Shown: one piece after another, positions 2,156 to 20,406 of the stretch | How positions within the stretch are numbered: the stretch's first letter is position 1 | Layout of the letters: each line of letters begins with the position of its first letter | Origin: a virus | Direction: 5' to 3' (one strand) | Virus record (IMG/VR): IMGVR_UViG_3300009124_000097 | Coordinates: 1 to 24,995 of that record | Length of the DNA: 24,995 nucleotides | Notes under the pieces: model-generated | Seen by the model: the letters and a program-made list of their open reading frames with translations, nothing else | Told to the model about the DNA's origin: nothing | The model's database searches: none | Position numbers and translations under genes: made by a program

Positions 2156-3670
2156 TTATTTATTTTTGAGATTTGCCTTACGATACTCAATATCAGCACG
2201 GGTGCCACGATCCATCTTACCTTGTGACTTAGGCTTGGTCTTACCACCTACATCAGGTTGCATACCAGGGTTTCCTGCCTTGACTCTGCGACCATGGGTG
2301 TATTCAGCACCACTCATCTTTGAAGTACCAGACACCATCTTACCACCCTCAGAACGGGAATCGGCGTACTCTTTCTCAGACTGACCGTGCTTACCCTTGT
2401 AGAGTTCATCAAGTGCCATCTGAGTCATGATCTTAAGAGCTTCAGACTTTGTATAACCCTCTTCAATCAGAGAGTCAAACATCAGATCAAAATCTTCTAT
2501 ATTCTCAGTTTCTTCTTTGACAGGAGTAAACTTAAAACCTTTTACCCGAGATGATCCAGCACTCTTGGCATCATAGTGTGGGTTTCCTTTACCCATACGA
2601 GAAATTGTTTTCTTAATCTTTTTGGCTTTCTCTGGATCTACTTCTTCCTTAACTTTCACTTCTTCTTGACGAAGTGCCTTACGACGTTTTTTCTCGACCT
2701 GTTTATCAGTAAGAACTTCTCCTTGACCACGATTGGCATCAGGATCATAATTACTAGGAGGAGTATAGTTGCTTCCAAAAGACTTAATGTTGGATCTTAC
2801 ACGTTGAGTATGTTGCTTATTGCTCATACGACGTGAATCCTCATCAATTGTCATCTCAAAACTCTCATCATGAGTTCCCTTACCTTTGCAATGAGAACAA
2901 CCTTTGCCATCACACTTGGGACACTCTTTCTTACCCATCGCCTTCTTGATGGCTTTGTCTCTTGAACCCATGTACTCATCAGTACCTGATTCAATCTCAC
3001 CATCACCATCATAATCCTTATCTGCTTTCTTCTCATAGATGGATCTGTAAGCATCACCCCAACCCTTACGGATTTGTGATACTTCTTCAAAGTGTGGGTT
3101 CTTCTGACCCTTCACCTTTGCCATTTCCTTACGAGCCTTCTCGTTATTCTCCTGTCTCTTCTTCATATCTGTCTCAAGATATGACTTATCAGCTTTCTCT
3201 ACCAGTTGAAGGAGAAGAGTCTTGACATTCAATGACTCTTGTGCAACCAATTGATTATGAGTTCTTTGTACTCTCTTCTCTTGATTGAATCTTGCCGACC
3301 AAGATTCTTGGAGTTTTTTATTATGTCTATACTTAGCAAACTCTTCCAAAGCAATAGTCGATGCCTTGGAATCAATTACATCAAATGCCCTATTCAGGGA
3401 CTCACACAATCTGTCAATCTTTACCTGTCTTCCAACAATACTCGACTCAACAAACATCTCAGAGAAAATTGCGTGTGCAGAATCTACTGAGTAACCTTTC
3501 TGGAACATTTCCTCCAGAACACTTTCAACAATCTCGTTAAGATCAGTGTCAGTCAGAACGGAAAGATTCATCTCAGAGATGTGATCCTTTCCAGAAGTCA
3601 ATTCTTCTTTTGCTTCGGTGTTATGGACAGCAGTATATGCTTCCATAAAATTACGCATTGATGAAGACAT
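2156..3670 (-). CDS. Conserved late/structural protein with DnaJ-type zinc motif and calcium-loop motif
   Basis: This 504-residue hydrophilic protein resembles cyanophage late proteins of unknown function. The N-terminus (1-120) is predicted helical. Residues 217-228 read like an EF-hand/dockerin calcium loop (DKDYDGDGEIES). Residues 250-265 hold two adjacent CxxCxGxG motifs (Cys250/253 and Cys258/261), the repeat unit of the DnaJ zinc-finger, with two units instead of four. Two segments look related: LEEMFQKGYSVDSAHAIF at about 52-69 and LIEEGYTKSEALKIM at 401-415, suggesting an internal duplication. The C-terminal 80 residues are Gly/Lys/Arg-rich and probably disordered. A late-promoter-like box precedes it. 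A virion or prohead-associated role is inference from the family and location. Confidence 0.8.
   Translation of the reverse strand: MSSSMRNFMEAYTAVHNTEAKEELTSGKDHISEMNLSVLTDTDLNEIVESVLEEMFQKGYSVDSAHAIFSEMFVESSIVGRQVKIDRLCESLNRAFDVIDSKASTIALEEFAKYRHNKKLQESWSARFNQEKRVQRTHNQLVAQESLNVKTLLLQLVEKADKSYLETDMKKRQENNEKARKEMAKVKGQKNPHFEEVSQIRKGWGDAYRSIYEKKADKDYDGDGEIESGTDEYMGSRDKAIKKAMGKKECPKCDGKGCSHCKGKGTHDESFEMTIDEDSRRMSNKQHTQRVRSNIKSFGSNYTPPSNYDPDANRGQGEVLTDKQVEKKRRKALRQEEVKVKEEVDPEKAKKIKKTISRMGKGNPHYDAKSAGSSRVKGFKFTPVKEETENIEDFDLMFDSLIEEGYTKSEALKIMTQMALDELYKGKHGQSEKEYADSRSEGGKMVSGTSKMSGAEYTHGRRVKAGNPGMQPDVGGKTKPKSQGKMDRGTRADIEYRKANLKNK
2157..2164 (-). promoter_or_regulatory. Late-promoter-like box (NATAAATA)
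   Basis: The minus strand reads AATAAATA, 24 bases before the ATG at 2132 of the HNH-domain gene. It overlaps the last codons and TAA stop of the 504-residue gene. Spacing matches the boxes at 48-55 and 3699-3706. Confidence 0.45.
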
Positions 3671-3681
3671 CTTTTTACAAT

Positions 3682-3891
3682 TTACTTTTCTATATCTTTA
3701 TTTATCATCTCCAAATATTCTCTCTCCTCTTCATAAATCGAAGAGGGGTTCATATACAAATGAATCCCCTCTTGAATACCTGGTATCAACCATTGGTCAA
3801 CACGATAACAATACTTCCAGTTGACTGGTTGAATACAGTTCATAACAACCACTGACCAAAATGCAGCAATATAGTTCAAAAAGGTTGTCAT
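3682..3891 (-). CDS. Small conserved-looking protein, unknown function
   Basis: The product has 69 residues starting MTTFLNYIAAFWSVVVMNC. The frame could extend five codons upstream to a TTG, but the ATG at 3891 overlaps the stop of the upstream small gene in the ATGA arrangement common here. Residues 3-18 are hydrophobic and could be one membrane-associated helix; the remainder is aromatic-rich (W, Y) and ends in a charged helix (EEEREYLEMINKDIEK). No family is recognised. Confidence 0.6.
   Translation of the reverse strand: MTTFLNYIAAFWSVVVMNCIQPVNWKYCYRVDQWLIPGIQEGIHLYMNPSSIYEEEREYLEMINKDIEK
3699..3706 (-). promoter_or_regulatory. Late-promoter-like box (NATAAATA)
   Basis: The minus strand reads GATAAATA, 28 bases before the ATG at 3670. 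It lies in the last codons of the upstream 69-residue gene. It is the best-placed of the four boxes, because the 504-residue gene it precedes is a late-type gene and the gene before it is a small early-type one. Confidence 0.5.
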
Positions 3892-5489: not shown

Positions 5490-5497
5490 TATTTATT
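5490..5497 (-). promoter_or_regulatory. Possible late-promoter-like box
   Basis: AATAAATA on the minus strand, 21 bases before the ATG at 5468, overlapping the TAA stop of the upstream gene. The spacing equals that at 48-55, but the downstream genes look early or accessory rather than structural, so confidence is lower. Confidence 0.3.
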
Positions 5498-5702
5498 CTT
5501 CAGGGTTATCTTTTTTATTAAACCCAAATGGAGATTCTTTATCTTCTAATGCCAATTTAAGAGCAACTCCACCAACTGCTTCCATGACTTTGAGAATGTC
5601 TTCCGGTTTTGCATCTTCACCAAGTTCTTTGGCAACGTACCAATACTTTGGCCAAAATGTTTCTCCTGCTTTTTTATAGTCTTCGAGTGTAAGAATTTTC
5701 AT
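5493..5702 (-). CDS. Conserved phage protein of unknown function, 69 residues
   Basis: This small acidic protein begins MKILTLEDYKKAGETFWPKY and continues with a helix (PEDILKVMEAVGGVALKLAL) and a charged tail. Its ATG overlaps the methyltransferase stop (ATGA), so it is translationally coupled to the modification trio. A helper role there is possible but nothing in the sequence shows it. No domain is recognised. Confidence 0.7.
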   Translation of the reverse strand: MKILTLEDYKKAGETFWPKYWYVAKELGEDAKPEDILKVMEAVGGVALKLALEDKESPFGFNKKDNPEE

Positions 5703-6817
5703 AGTTTAGATAATACTTCTTTGTAAATGTTTTCGGCAATTGCTTTCATCATTAGTGGAGGAACCATACGACCAACACGTTCTGTTTGTTGTGAATGTGT
5801 ACCAGTAAGAATGAAATCGTCAGGAAGTGATTGAATACGTTTGAGTTCTGGAATAGAAAGTACTCTGTCTTCCTTCCAGTGAATTAAACCACCACTAGCA
5901 GTAAGTGTAGGAGATGGTTTAAAGAATGATGCCCTCTTTGTATTGAAACAATGACCCTTTTCATGATAGTCCATCCCAGATAAAATCTTTTTAGGATTCT
6001 TTGGCATCTTCTTTACAACACTCTGATAGATACCACTATTCAACATATGTTCAGTCAAAGACTGAATATTTTCAGGATCGTTTTCAACACCATCAATGAT
6101 ATCACCAATAGTAGTATCCTTTGATGATGTAGGAGGGAAAAGAGAAGATACTGTTAGTACGTTCAATCCAATGTTATCTGCAATATCCTGTCTAACAGCA
6201 ATGAAAATAAGTCGTTCTCTTGCTTGACCAACACCATAATGAGATGATTTCATCACTTTGGAAGTGACAAGATAACCAATCTGTTCAAATGCATTGGTAA
6301 TTTTAGCATAATAAGTCTTTGCCTCACCAATTGTCAATCCCTTGACATTTTCCGCGACAATAACTTTTGGCTGAATACCTTTGGCAACACGGATAAATTC
6401 AAAGAATAAGTCTTCAATGTTTTCAACTTTCTTACCATCAGAATAATTCTTTGTCTTACCCCAACCATCGGAGTGTTTAGAACCCTCACCCCGACACATA
6501 GATCCTGCAACAGAAAATGCAGAACAAGGTGGTGACCCATCAAGGATATCTAGTTCACCAGGTTTCAGTCCAGTAATCTTAAGAAAGTCCCCACCAGTCA
6601 ATTGTTTGATGTCATCAGGAACAATATAAGTAGAAGGATAATTTGCAGAATATGTCTTTCTTGCTTCTTCAACAAATTCATTAATACAAAGAATTTTACC
6701 ACCAGCAAGACGATACCCCGTGGAAGAACCACCTCCACCGGCGAATGTTGATATGACTTTAAACTTTTCTAGTGCCTCACCGTCGTAAACATCTTGTAAT
6801 TTATATGGTAACTTCAT
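5699..6817 (-). CDS. C5-cytosine DNA methyltransferase with altered motif X
   Basis: The 372-residue protein has the motifs of the Dcm/HhaI family in order: motif I FAGGGGSSTGYRLAG at 25-39 (SAM binding), motif IV GSPPC with catalytic Cys98, motif VI ENV at 156-158, motif VIII QARER at 198-202, a target-recognition region at about 205-310, motif IX-like LSIPELKRIQSLPDDF at 320-335, and motif X VGRMVPP at 348-354. Motif X normally reads GN(A/S)VPP; here Asn is replaced by Arg350. That residue lies near the SAM methionine moiety, and a basic residue at the equivalent position of engineered M.MpeI (N374K, as I recall) allows carboxy-SAM use. The ATG overlaps the AsnB-like stop. It modifies cytosine in DNA; whether the group added is methyl or carboxymethyl is the open question. 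Confidence 0.93.
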   Translation of the reverse strand: MKLPYKLQDVYDGEALEKFKVISTFAGGGGSSTGYRLAGGKILCINEFVEEARKTYSANYPSTYIVPDDIKQLTGGDFLKITGLKPGELDILDGSPPCSAFSVAGSMCRGEGSKHSDGWGKTKNYSDGKKVENIEDLFFEFIRVAKGIQPKVIVAENVKGLTIGEAKTYYAKITNAFEQIGYLVTSKVMKSSHYGVGQARERLIFIAVRQDIADNIGLNVLTVSSLFPPTSSKDTTIGDIIDGVENDPENIQSLTEHMLNSGIYQSVVKKMPKNPKKILSGMDYHEKGHCFNTKRASFFKPSPTLTASGGLIHWKEDRVLSIPELKRIQSLPDDFILTGTHSQQTERVGRMVPPLMMKAIAENIYKEVLSKL

Positions 6818-8211
6818 AAAAATAATTTCTTATAGTGGTTAGTATAATATGTTTTTGGAGATTCGACAATATCTTCATAGAGACTTTTAATACCCATTCC
6901 ATCCTGAAAGGCAACTTTCTTTCTATCAACAATATTGTCAGGAAGTTGTCCTCTAAATGACTCTTGGAGGATTGCTTTAGGTCTAGACTTTCCATCCCAA
7001 ACAATATCCTGACTTAACCCAAGAGCAGACTCAACTAATTGAGTGTTCAAGAATGGTAATCTACATTCTATACCATACTTCATGAAGATTTTGTTACACC
7101 TAGAAAAGTTTTTACGATGTTGAGATCCAAATAAATCAACTCGATAATTAGTCCAACCCTTATCTTGAATACCATGATAACTCATACCATATGATGCCCA
7201 GAGTTCATCACTTCCCTCACCAGACATAATTACCTTGAACCCATCTTCACTAATTCTACGAGCAAGTTGAATACAAGGATAACCAATTTCAACTTGCGCT
7301 TTGTAAGGCATTTCAATAGTTTTAATTACATCATTCACATCATCAATATTAGGAGGTTCAACTTTAACTTCTCTAAGTTCAACTCCCAAATATTTAGCAA
7401 CTTCTCTAGCTGACCGCAAGTCTTTTGAATTTTCATCATGGACAGCTGTGTAAGTAACAAGATTTGGTATGTGTTGTGAAGCAATTAATGTGGTAATTGC
7501 AGAATCAATACCACCAGAGAGGAGACATGCAACAGGAACATCAGAAATAGTTCTTTCATAAGATCCTTTGGTGATACCATTATAGATGTTTATTTTAGAT
7601 GTATCAACGTCCCAAGTAGATGTATCTACAATATGTTCTCTAATATTATACCAATATCCCTCCTCCACAGAATAATCAGGTCCTACCTTTATAAAGGATC
7701 CCGGTTCTAACATTTTTATAGTTTTACCATGTTCTCCTACTGCAAGAAGACCCTTTATCTCTGAACAAAAACTAAACGAAGGAAATATACCTGTAATAAG
7801 TGAATAGTGAAGTGGAACTTCCCCATGCCTATCTCTTACAATCGTAATTGATCCATCGCCTTGAGTGAATGCAATCGCAAACATTCCCTCAACTTTGTCC
7901 AAGGCGCCAATTCCATACTTGTCTAATAAAGCACAAAGAACCTCAGTGTCACCTGAAGTTCTAGTTTCAATATTCAACTCATCTCTAAGTTCACGATAAT
8001 TCCAAATCGTACCATTAAAAATCATCGTAGTAGAACCATAGACAAATGGCTGATTTGAATCACTACTAGTATCAATAATAGACAAACGGACATGTCCAAA
8101 ATAGACATTATCCGTTTGAATAATTCCTTGGCTATCTGGTCCACGATGAGCTATCGTATCAAGACCTTTTTCAATTTGGGGAAGGTCGAATCCTCCAATA
8201 ATTCCACACAT
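6814..8211 (-). CDS. asnB: AsnB-type asparagine synthetase / class II glutamine amidotransferase
   Basis: The N-terminal glutaminase domain starts with the catalytic Cys2 (MCGIIGG) and carries HRGPDSQG at 22-29, NGTIWNYRELR at 66-76 and SGDTEV at 86-91. The C-terminal synthetase domain has the PP-loop SGGIDS at 232-237 and GEGSDELWASYG at 331-342. The family hydrolyses glutamine and passes ammonia to a carboxylate activated by ATP, normally aspartate. At 465 residues it is shorter than typical bacterial AsnB (about 550), the loss being mainly C-terminal. The usual RDxxGxKPLYY reads RDRHGEVPLHY. Similar asnB genes are known in cyanophages. It is coupled by overlaps to the CmoA-like gene before it and the methyltransferase after it, so its substrate might be a modified base rather than aspartate. 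Confidence 0.92.
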   Translation of the reverse strand: MCGIIGGFDLPQIEKGLDTIAHRGPDSQGIIQTDNVYFGHVRLSIIDTSSDSNQPFVYGSTTMIFNGTIWNYRELRDELNIETRTSGDTEVLCALLDKYGIGALDKVEGMFAIAFTQGDGSITIVRDRHGEVPLHYSLITGIFPSFSFCSEIKGLLAVGEHGKTIKMLEPGSFIKVGPDYSVEEGYWYNIREHIVDTSTWDVDTSKINIYNGITKGSYERTISDVPVACLLSGGIDSAITTLIASQHIPNLVTYTAVHDENSKDLRSAREVAKYLGVELREVKVEPPNIDDVNDVIKTIEMPYKAQVEIGYPCIQLARRISEDGFKVIMSGEGSDELWASYGMSYHGIQDKGWTNYRVDLFGSQHRKNFSRCNKIFMKYGIECRLPFLNTQLVESALGLSQDIVWDGKSRPKAILQESFRGQLPDNIVDRKKVAFQDGMGIKSLYEDIVESPKTYYTNHYKKLFL

Positions 8212-8906
8212 TACTTAATTGCAATAACTCCAGCAAACTGATGATTTCTCCAGAAGATCTGACAGTCTTTGAAACCAGCACACCATATCATAGACTTGAG
8301 TTCTTCCCAAGTATTTGGTTTCAACATGTCGCGAAGTTCTTTCTCTTTGTCCATGATCTCATCTGCAGTGAATGACTTCTTCTTGTAGTCATAGTGATTG
8401 AATGTCAGTAGTTCTTGAAAGAATGCATTCTCACACATCAACTTCTCTGCGAAGATGAATGCACCACCTTCATTTAGACCCTGATAGATTTTGTTGATTG
8501 TATCTTGACGAGTAGTCTTTGGCATGAACTGAAGAGTGAACAATGATGTCACCAAAGAACAATTCTTGAACTCATAGTTGGTAACATTACCACGAACAAA
8601 ATCTAGAATTGCCCAAGGATAGTCTTTACGGATCTCTTTGTATCTCTCATCCAAATCATCATAGAACCCACCAGCAAGTTCAACACCTACGTATTGAACC
8701 TGTTTACGAGACTGATTATTGGCAAGGATCATCTTGGTCAGTTTACCAGTAGAACAACCAACATCAACGACTTTAGTATGATCTTCCACAAAGTATCGAG
8801 AGAACGATACAGTATCCTCCAGGAGGTTTGAGTAACCCCGAATAGATTTGTCAATATGATTATCGAAACCTTCTGGCGAATGTGCGAAAGAAAAGTCGTA
8901 TGTCAT
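8211..8906 (-). CDS. CmoA-like SAM-dependent enzyme (carboxy-SAM synthase family)
   Basis: This 231-residue class I methyltransferase-fold protein has SAM motif VVDVGCSTGK at 46-55 and acidic Glu76 ending strand two. Beyond the generic fold it matches E. coli CmoA (recalled from memory) in several blocks: GYSN at 24-27, FTLQF at 123-127, KIYQGLNEGGA at 139-149, HYDYK at 171-175, and the AGF...W...F...VIAIK tail. CmoA converts SAM and prephenate to carboxy-SAM, which CmoB uses on tRNA. No CmoB is visible here, but a C5-cytosine methyltransferase is. CmoA Arg199, which binds the added carboxylate, aligns with Glu188, so carboxy-SAM synthesis is plausible but not secure. A plain methyltransferase is the alternative. 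It overlaps both neighbours. Confidence 0.8.
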   Translation of the reverse strand: MTYDFSFAHSPEGFDNHIDKSIRGYSNLLEDTVSFSRYFVEDHTKVVDVGCSTGKLTKMILANNQSRKQVQYVGVELAGGFYDDLDERYKEIRKDYPWAILDFVRGNVTNYEFKNCSLVTSLFTLQFMPKTTRQDTINKIYQGLNEGGAFIFAEKLMCENAFFQELLTFNHYDYKKKSFTADEIMDKEKELRDMLKPNTWEELKSMIWCAGFKDCQIFWRNHQFAGVIAIK

Positions 8907-9133
8907 TTTCCAACTCCGTAGTCTGGTGCTGCTTCTGTTTCAAGTTCACGAATCTCCTTTGTAGCTTCTTCAAGAGCAGATTCGATTTGTGTATCCAGTG
9001 TACCAATTGTTTCACGAATGTCAACAATACGTTGAGGGATACACGTTGGATCGTAAGTATATCCTTCCTGTTCTTTATATAACACCTGGCGAATTGCAGC
9101 TGCTGTTCTTACATCAAGTTCAAGTTTAATCAC
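8903..9133 (-). CDS. 76-residue hypothetical protein
   Basis: Translation probably starts at the GTG at 9133, preceded by a strong AAGGAGG and overlapping the mazG stop (GTGA). The protein begins MIKLELDVRTAAAIRQVL and then forms a charged helix (LDTQIESALEEATKEIRELE). The N-terminal pattern, a strand followed by a helix with AAAIRQVL, is seen in small phage proteins of unknown function. It directly precedes the CmoA-like gene with a four-base overlap. Confidence 0.75.
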   Translation of the reverse strand: MIKLELDVRTAAAIRQVLYKEQEGYTYDPTCIPQRIVDIRETIGTLDTQIESALEEATKEIRELETEAAPDYGVGK

Positions 9134-9558
9134 AGGTCTCCCTCCTTACGGTTTTCAGAATAATGGACATCAAATGTTCCCTCAGGATAACGTGCAGACA
9201 ACTTTTCAACATTCATCTGAAGAACTTCATCGAATGATGTATCAAGTGCCATACATGCTTGAGCAAGATACCAACAGATATCGCCAAGTTCACGTTTCAT
9301 ATGGAACACATTTTCTTCAGTATATGGTTTACCTTGAAGAAAAATCTTTTTAACGACTTCAGTAAATTCTCCAGATTCAGCAGTCAGACCAAATGCTGCT
9401 GTCATAAGTTGAGTCACATTACAATCATCTTTTACTTCAAGTTCAGTAAGACGACTAGAAAGAGTAGGCCAATCAAGACTTGGTTTGCTAGTGGTTTGAC
9501 GAACAAACTCGACGTACTTTTCGGGATCAATTTTATTTTGAGTCATAGTAAAAGTCAT
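9130..9558 (-). CDS. mazG: MazG-like nucleotide pyrophosphohydrolase
   Basis: The 142-residue protein has the MazG all-alpha metal site: E61-SG-E64 and E90-LG-D93 (ExxE then ExxD), with following WYLAQACMALDTSFDEVLQMN typical of the family. MazG enzymes hydrolyse nucleoside triphosphates or related nucleotides to monophosphates. Cyanophage MazG is a common accessory gene, proposed either to alter host (p)ppGpp signalling or to process nucleotides released from the GC-richer host genome. The ATG at 9558 overlaps the preceding stop; a second ATG four codons in is possible. In a phage with modified DNA it could also clean the dNTP pool, though nothing here shows that. Confidence 0.88.
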   Translation of the reverse strand: MTFTMTQNKIDPEKYVEFVRQTTSKPSLDWPTLSSRLTELEVKDDCNVTQLMTAAFGLTAESGEFTEVVKKIFLQGKPYTEENVFHMKRELGDICWYLAQACMALDTSFDEVLQMNVEKLSARYPEGTFDVHYSENRKEGDL

Positions 9559-9839
9559 GGGTTAAATGGTTCTTGTTGCGTATCGGGCAAAATTTGTTGA
9601 GGTGGTAACTCAGAGTCACCAGGAATTGTTGTGTGAGAAACATCTACAGTTTCTTGAGGAGGAAAGTATATTTTAACATAGGTATAATCATATGCCCAGT
9701 TTCTCTCACAAATTTCTTGTGCATGTTTTTCAGACCCACAATGACAATACCTATTACCCCTTGTGTCTCTCACTTCAAAATAGTGAGCAGGTTCATTTAT
9801 TACAAGTTTAGATTGTAATTCTTTTGTTGTAAGTCCCAT
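9555..9839 (-). CDS. 94-residue conserved-looking protein with a Cys-His motif
   Basis: The ATG at 9839 (MGLTTKELQSKLVINEPAHY) sits just after the gp41 stop and is preferred; a longer frame would run 100 bases into gp41. The middle reads YFEVRDTRGNRYCHCGSEKHAQEIC, a beta hairpin carrying Cys-His-Cys and a later His/Cys, compatible with weak metal binding. The C-terminal 35 residues are Pro/Gln/Thr-rich and likely disordered. No family is recognised. Confidence 0.7.
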   Translation of the reverse strand: MGLTTKELQSKLVINEPAHYFEVRDTRGNRYCHCGSEKHAQEICERNWAYDYTYVKIYFPPQETVDVSHTTIPGDSELPPQQILPDTQQEPFNP

Positions 9840-18881: not shown

Positions 18882-19409
18882 TTACACCCACTCGGGTTTA
18901 CGATCAGGAATACGGAGATAGTTATCTTTCACCCAAGGTTTAGATGCAATATACATCTTGTATGCATCAAATGTCGAGATATTTGTATCAAGTTTATACT
19001 CGTCAGGCATAGCTCGAACAAAAGGTGTTGTTTCCTTTCCACTTCTTCCTGTGGGATCACCACCAGGAAGAATCTCTTGGGCAGCAAGAAGAGAATGAAA
19101 ACAAGTATGAGTTTTACCATACCTCATTTTGTATTCATCACACAAAGCAATACCGTGTTGAAGTAACCACTGCCAATTCATCACAAACTCGTTTGCCCAC
19201 TTGGTACAGGGATGGTTACGGAAGGCACCTTTCTCGGTACTGTAGGGAGTTCCATCCGCTTTAGGGATGGTTCCAAACCCATGACCCCACTTCTCCGAAC
19301 AGACGATAGAGAGCATCTGACAGGTTTCTAGAGGCATTTTGACAATATGTTTGTCGGGGAGAACCCTGGCACATTCCCATGGATCTGAGCTTGTAACAAA
19401 AATGTTCAT
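18882..19409 (-). CDS. Conserved phage protein of unknown function, 175 residues
   Basis: The protein begins MNIFVTSSDPWECARVLPDK and has polar blocks that look catalytic: DKHIVKMPLET at 19-29, RNHPCTKWAN near 65-73, and FVRAMPDEYK near 130, ending with KPWVKDNYLR. Proteins starting NIFVLD..P..A......DKHVVKM are widespread in phages and lack an assigned function as far as I know. It overlaps speD by four bases (ATGA) and abuts the dioxygenase. An enzyme acting on DNA or nucleotides is a guess only. Confidence 0.8.
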   Translation of the reverse strand: MNIFVTSSDPWECARVLPDKHIVKMPLETCQMLSIVCSEKWGHGFGTIPKADGTPYSTEKGAFRNHPCTKWANEFVMNWQWLLQHGIALCDEYKMRYGKTHTCFHSLLAAQEILPGGDPTGRSGKETTPFVRAMPDEYKLDTNISTFDAYKMYIASKPWVKDNYLRIPDRKPEWV

Positions 19410-19741
19410 TCTAATGGTCTTGTAAAAGTGTTAGAAACAAGATCTGTTGCACCCATTGCTTCGTACATGTAAGTAGCACCAGCTCTTGGATTAGTGTGAT
19501 CACCACAAGTGAACACATCACATACTGCCATACCATTCTCAGGCCATGTGTGGATTGAGATATGGGATTCTGCAAGAAGTGCAATGGCAGTCACACCATG
19601 TGGGTCGAACTTATGGGATGATACATCAAGAAGAGTACTTTTGGAAAGAGAGGCGGCATTGGTAAGAACATTGCGAATGTGAGCCTCATCATCCAATAGA
19701 CCATAAGGACAACCCTTCAGGGTGAAGAGAATGTGTCTCAT
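19406..19741 (-). CDS. speD: S-adenosylmethionine decarboxylase
   Basis: The 111-residue proenzyme is of the short bacterial SpeD class. The self-cleavage site lies in AESHISIHTWPE: cleavage before Ser59 makes the pyruvoyl group, with His60 and His64 nearby. The CDVFTCG block at 74-80 is also diagnostic. It produces decarboxylated SAM for spermidine synthesis, a known cyanophage accessory gene. The start at 19741 overlaps the gp45 stop. This window also has other SAM-using genes (cytosine methyltransferase and CmoA-like enzyme). Confidence 0.95.
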   Translation of the reverse strand: MRHILFTLKGCPYGLLDDEAHIRNVLTNAASLSKSTLLDVSSHKFDPHGVTAIALLAESHISIHTWPENGMAVCDVFTCGDHTNPRAGATYMYEAMGATDLVSNTFTRPLE

Positions 19742-20406
19742 CAACCGAAAGTTGAATCGGGTTCTAGAGCGATGTAATATGTCACATCGATATTCTGATT
19801 CTGGAAGCGAGACAGAAGTTTCTCCGATACTACGACATCATAGTTGCCAGGGACAATCTTGAGGTTTTCTTCTTTAAAGTTGAACACAAACTCAGTATCA
19901 GTCTCGCCAACGACAATAGAGAAGTCATTAGAAGTGTCGTTCTTCTTATCACGAGCAACCAACTTGATAACACCAGCTTCACCAATCACAGAGATATCGG
20001 GAAGTTGATAGACAGATGCAGCTTTTTTCAACTTCTCCAGTTGTTGACTAGTGAGTTGGAAACAAACATCCTCAGAAGGAAGAGTAATTTCTTTCTCGGG
20101 AGGTGCAACAATCACAGAAGGATCTGCAAAGAAATACTTGGAACGAGAACGACCTTCTTTAATTACCACATACTGATCATTGTCAAAGTCAAGATCAGGT
20201 GAAGAGTGGAGAGACAGACCATTAAGAAACTGGTTCAAATCGTAGATACCAAAATCTTTAGGGAACTCTTCAGATACATTAGCTTCAACCAAAATATTTT
20301 TCATCACTGAAATACTTCGGAGCTTTTGACCCTCCTTAAACAAAATAGACTGATTGATCGAAGAAAAGTTTTTGAGGAGAGATACAGTGGATTCGGACAG
20401 TTTCAT
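19741..20406 (-). CDS. 45: Sliding clamp, gp45
   Basis: The 221-residue clamp protein has the T4 gp45 pattern: MKLSESTVSLLKNFSSINQS start, repeated two-domain beta layout, and LEKLKKAASVYQLPDISV near the centre, comparable to T4 gp45. It forms the trimeric ring that tethers gp43; in T4 it also activates late transcription with gp33/gp55, relevant to the late-promoter boxes at the low end of this window. It is the first gene of the clamp-loader part of the operon. Confidence 0.93.
   Translation of the reverse strand: MKLSESTVSLLKNFSSINQSILFKEGQKLRSISVMKNILVEANVSEEFPKDFGIYDLNQFLNGLSLHSSPDLDFDNDQYVVIKEGRSRSKYFFADPSVIVAPPEKEITLPSEDVCFQLTSQQLEKLKKAASVYQLPDISVIGEAGVIKLVARDKKNDTSNDFSIVVGETDTEFVFNFKEENLKIVPGNYDVVVSEKLLSRFQNQNIDVTYYIALEPDSTFG

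Follow-up and report, generated by a model that had tools for sequence, protein, structure and literature searches.

A predicted cytosine hypermodification cassette with an exchangeable ligase slot in a marine T4-like cyanophage

The core pathway of DNA cytosine carboxymethylation is already known, as it was worked out in Synechococcus phage S-B43 (PMC12783734, Nature Communications, December 2025). The CmoA of this phage (SpCmoA) makes carboxy-SAM (Cx-SAM), and its CmoX (SpCmoX), which takes Cx-SAM only and not SAM, gives 5-carboxymethylcytosine at GC sites (PMC12783734). In the SpCmoX structure 8YF3, Arg350 contacts the carboxylate of Cx-SAM. The third enzyme, CmoY, links glycine to 5-carboxymethylcytosine, and the resulting glycine amide was found in virion DNA; resistance to HhaI was shown for the S-B43 homologue in vitro only (PMC12783734). 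The same work reported 5,615 candidates for CmoX and described a second, also large, cluster of ligases, these with a glutaminase domain. Ammonia use was predicted for this cluster, and the glutaminase-bearing ligase that was tried was never obtained soluble (PMC12783734).

The cassette and its gene context

The window, the whole stretch of DNA that was analysed (24,995 nucleotides), comes from a marine T4-like cyanophage and forms a 25-kb cluster of replication genes on the minus strand. The phages nearest to it were Synechococcus phages RN05-S, RB11-B, S-B43 and S-B05. The original prediction had described three genes overlapping stop to start, CmoA-like, AsnB-like and C5-methyltransferase, and inspection of the ORFs of the window confirmed that all three are intact and lie on the minus strand. 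With their two neighbours, in the order of transcription, they are:

8903–9133, minus strand: 76-aa ORF, conserved upstream neighbour, in the same order in S-B43, RB11-B, S-B05 and RN05-S; no match in a Pfam search
8211–8906, minus strand: cmoA, predicted carboxy-SAM synthase, 231 aa, by homology to SpCmoA and 4gek
6814–8211, minus strand: ligase, CmoY-type synthetase plus N-terminal glutaminase domain, 465 aa, predicted to be amidating (PF13522/PF13537 and PF00733)
5699–6817, minus strand: cmoX, predicted DNA cytosine C5-carboxymethyltransferase, 372 aa, by 93% identity to 8yf3
5493–5702, minus strand: 69-aa ORF, conserved downstream neighbour, in the same order in S-B43 and relatives; no match in a Pfam search

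The overlap was 1 nt (TAATG) at the cmoA/ligase junction and 4 nt (ATGA) at the ligase/cmoX junction. As a sign of coupling these overlaps were discounted; they are weak evidence by themselves because about 10 further gene pairs of the window also overlap, overlaps being ordinary across it. The real evidence for a cassette is the conserved adjacency of the genes across viral loci. A genome neighbourhood check of the co-occurrence that the original prediction had raised was run on 74 viral loci (IMG/VR) with a related ligase, and CmoX was present in 69 and CmoA in 60 of them, with every missing CmoX or CmoA falling at a contig end. Two gene orders were found among these 74 loci.

In annotated phages, the sole close full-length relative of the window ligase was gp124 of Streptomyces phage TurkishDelight (42% identity), which lies between CmoX and CmoA; the others were at most 32% identical. 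TurkishDelight, unlike the window, belongs to another phage group and has the order CmoX-ligase-CmoA. Clusters of CmoX-ligase-CmoA were also encoded by three Streptomyces assemblies (L145, L146 and L147), either as prophage or as host genes.

Other genes were seen in or around some of these cassettes. Extra ORFs that look ParB-like by eye were located either directly ahead of CmoA or in the CmoA–CmoY interval in L034 (1420–1865), L082 (approximately 1090–2100) and L094 (approximately 1720–2740), and annotated ParB-like genes flank CmoX in TurkishDelight and PaBG. A large ORF inside the cassette of L091 (approximately 2570–3890) resembles, by eye, a DUF262-plus-HNH nuclease and would be a homing element or, alternatively, a partner nuclease. 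The window itself also encodes an S-adenosylmethionine decarboxylase (19406–19744, PF02675), which taps the same SAM pool as CmoA. GpC and CpG are both depleted across positions 1–24995, at 0.62 and 0.56 of expectation respectively, these being figures for the window alone.

CmoA and CmoX of the window

The window CmoA showed 93% identity to SpCmoA and matched the structures 4gek, 4iwn and 1im8, the best match being E. coli CmoA (4gek, E=7e-28). Against TIGR00740 it scored 121 bits (E=6e-35) and did not reach the cut-off of 193.3. This cut-off was set aside as a verdict because SpCmoA, which is proven to be active, falls below it too (115.6 bits), and every CmoX-associated phage CmoA that was searched also scored below it. 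The window protein is close to a biochemically proven phage CmoA and lies beside CmoX.

The window CmoX, which belongs to families PF00145 and TIGR00675, aligned over its full length with SpCmoX (PDB 8yf3) at 93% identity (E=1e-233). The SPPC motif is present at residues 95–98 (Cys98), and an alignment of CmoX relatives contained it in 200/200 sequences. The altered motif X that the original prediction pointed out proved to be real: Arg350, which is in contact with the carboxylate of Cx-SAM in 8YF3, stands where ordinary C5 methyltransferases have Asn (Asn304 in HhaI), and it was found in all 197 relatives that cover the position. The 200 relatives had been gathered by similarity, hence distant phage C5 methyltransferases were also compared. 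Among 13 phages, which are a small sample and not phylogenetically independent, position 350 was Arg in all eight that encode CmoA (the window phage, S-B43, S-CRM01, TurkishDelight, Mcat8, fHe-Yen9-02, SNUABM_5 and PaBG) and Met, Leu or Asn in all five without a CmoA-family match in the whole record (LoVEphage, FpV9, phi18:3, Melnitz and CL131).

Membership of PF00145 and TIGR00675 would also suit a methyltransferase that uses plain SAM to make 5-methylcytosine, with CmoA serving tRNA through the CmoB of the host. We regard this as very improbable, as the 93% identical SpCmoX accepts Cx-SAM but not SAM, Arg350 is kept, and this residue tracks the presence of CmoA across unrelated phages. Additionally, the observation that no CmoB follows CmoA held: the CmoB family (TIGR00452) had no match in the window, which is a 25-kb fragment, or in seven related records. 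On the strength of homology, cytosine carboxymethylation by the window CmoA and CmoX is near certain. CmoA would carboxylate SAM with prephenate to give carboxy-SAM, and CmoX would then attach the carboxymethyl group to the phage DNA, on C5 of cytosine and probably at GC sites as in its 93% homologue. These two steps were shown for the close homologues and are presumed to be the same for the window copies. The route from carboxy-SAM to 5-carboxymethylcytosine that had been proposed for the window therefore matches the one published for S-B43, and any claim to priority for it has been superseded by that publication. A marine phage group is thereby assigned to a DNA hypermodification system that has only recently been discovered.

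Variants of the CmoX gene were also noted. Locus L051 encodes two tandem CmoX genes (7389–8516 and 8519–9631), the extra CmoX being approximately 69% identical to that of the window, and tandem genes were also seen in L049, L052, L053, L054 and L056. Both copies have SPPC and the motif X Arg while their target-recognition regions have diverged, so that the pair possibly serves two target sequences. The jumbo phages fHe-Yen9-02 and SNUABM_5 (L224 and L229) encode CmoX-like proteins of approximately 690–700 aa, nearly double the usual length; CmoA lies thousands of bases from them. In Moraxella phage Mcat8 (L223, 3995–4645), a divergent CmoA-like gene annotated as hypothetical directly follows the Arg350-bearing methyltransferase; this is a probable compact CmoA-CmoX pair.

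Gene-for-gene exchange of the ligase

An alignment of L110 with L039 showed 99.4% identity over 5,061 nt up to the end of cmoA and 98.2% identity over 3,370 nt from the start codon of cmoX onwards. Their CmoX proteins were identical and their CmoA proteins 98.7% identical; the slot between these genes contained a glycine-type ligase in L110 and a glutaminase-type ligase in L039, and the breakpoints fall at stop and start codons. Further ligase swaps were found in the pairs L095/L038, L104/L042 and L082/L034. The slot was empty in L083, RN05-S and S-CRM01, none of which has a ligase there. Identity between L083 and L025, which has the glutaminase type, was 99% on the upstream side of the slot and again over a segment located further downstream, but 88% in the CmoX part. 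On a tree of CmoA and CmoX, at least nine changes of slot content were counted, and the well-supported branches force four changes for each ligase label.

The ligase slot is exchanged gene for gene, and contains a glycine-type ligase, a glutaminase-type ligase or no ligase. This exchange is not mentioned in the main text of PMC12783734. The swaps between near-identical phages, with flanks of 98–99% identity and identical CmoX, represent a natural experiment in which only the final decoration of the base would differ, so that its effect on resistance to host nucleases can be asked directly.

The predicted amidating ligase and its known counterparts

The window ligase consists of an N-terminal glutamine amidotransferase domain (PF13522/PF13537) and an asparagine-synthase domain (PF00733). 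SpCmoY has the synthetase domain only (271 aa) and shares approximately 22% identity with it. At 465 aa and with a glutaminase domain, the window protein lacks the profile of a glycine-type CmoY; an Ntn glutaminase and a synthetase domain beside CmoA and CmoX make it a ligase of the glutaminase type. Many relatives of this type, sharing 55–97% identity with the window ligase, were identified, and these candidate enzymes of the amidating branch could replace the insoluble one.

In an alignment of the ligases, the rows that reach each position showed no variation at Cys2, Arg42, Asn66, Gly67, Asp88, Glu332 and Lys432 or in the SGGxDS PP-loop. Glu76 of the glutaminase site of E. coli AsnB corresponds to Thr68 in the window ligase. 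This loss, together with the example of the sister enzyme CmoY, which adds glycine, speaks for a ligase that joins 5-carboxymethylcytosine to another amine, such as an amino acid, with a degenerate or idle glutaminase domain. Free-amine and glutamine-dependent use do coexist in the superfamily, and the actual acceptor could be an amine different from ammonia. However, an idle domain would be expected to lose Cys2 and Arg42/Asn66/Gly67/Asp88, and the glycine-type CmoY has dropped the glutaminase domain entirely; transfer to another amine is thus considered unlikely.

The closest solved structures to the ligase, both by sequence and by fold, were AsnB and human ASNS. An AlphaFold model of moderate confidence (mean pLDDT 68) had AsnB (1ct9) as its best fold match, which only confirms the AsnB fold and does not fix the substrate. 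The ligase scored 266.1 against the TIGR01536 (asparagine synthase) cut-off of 267.1, a miss of one bit that decides nothing alone, and 268.2 against NF006949, far from the cut-off of 499. The structural neighbours and the near miss fit an ordinary asparagine synthetase that raises the asparagine of the infected cell and is unrelated to base modification, but the substrate side of the protein does not. The [VI]TT[IV]R that precedes GEGSDE in E. coli AsnB and human ASNS is replaced by KAQVE or KAQIE in the phage ligases; the window ligase has KAQVE, and the K, A, Q and E are invariant in its relatives. K304 and E308 were present in every glutaminase-type (94/94) and every glycine-type (39/39) ligase. 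Of the 17 cellular AsnB-type rows, which include E. coli AsnB and a few duplicates, none had the two together. Other cellular AsnB classes lack TTIR and also lack the K/E pair. A literature search found no mutational work on the TTIR residues of AsnB.

As two very distant ligase types keep the same pair, K304 and E308 suggest a common substrate, which by this conservation may be 5-carboxymethylcytosine, and the absence of the pair from AsnB rows argues against asparagine supply. Approximately 90 C-terminal residues of AsnB are also missing, the ligase was never found away from CmoA or CmoX among the loci fetched, and the same slot is exchanged with CmoY, a proven DNA ligase. Asparagine supply, the duller reading in the original prediction, is disfavoured by this gene context and the changed motif, and we hold it to be improbable.

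The account that we prefer, and consider quite probable as a whole, is that of a hypermodification cassette in which CmoA, CmoX and an amidating ligase lead to 5-carbamoylmethylcytosine in phage DNA. The ligase would adenylate the carboxylate with ATP and amidate it with ammonia that its N-terminal glutaminase domain would free from glutamine, and the bulky base would shield the DNA from host nucleases. Amidation, as originally proposed, agrees with what PMC12783734 predicted for its glutaminase-bearing cluster and with the residue and context tests. The one-bit miss of TIGR01536, the change of Glu76 to Thr and the moderate model of the ligase were counted against it. 5-Carbamoylmethylcytosine is the most likely end product; a literature search found no proof of this base in any DNA. 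The calculated m/z of its deoxynucleoside is 285.12, compared with 286.10 for the carboxymethyl and 343.12 for the glycine form. It is also likely that a glutamine-dependent ligase acting on DNA makes this new base from within a slot that is swapped between glycine-adding, amidating and empty states. Phages would then alter the final base while the CmoA/CmoX machinery that places it stays the same. What is new here is the constant adjacency to CmoA and CmoX, the gene-exact exchange of the ligase and the K304/E308 pair common to both ligase types.

The CmoA-CmoX-CmoY system of S-B43 is like that of the window in gene order, neighbours, slot, Arg350 and SPPC, and its CmoA and CmoX are 93% identical. 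It differs in the ligase, which is a 271-aa glycine type in S-B43 and a 465-aa glutaminase plus synthetase in the window, and in the product, a glycine amide in S-B43 and a predicted primary amide for the window. The glutaminase-bearing cluster (A0A7T0Q3R0, PMC12783734) shares with the window the glutaminase and synthetase domains beside CmoX and CmoA. Asparagine synthetase B (1CT9) has the same domain order, fold, PP-loop and glutaminase nucleophile, whereas the window ligase has KAQVE in place of [VI]TT[IV]R, a shorter C-terminus and a DNA modification context. The phage pathway to 5-carbamoyloxymethylcytosine (MetaGPA, PMC8670742) also ends in a carbamoyl-bearing cytosine, but there a carbamoyltransferase acts on 5-hydroxymethylcytosine to give an O-carbamoyl group and not the amide of a carboxymethyl group.
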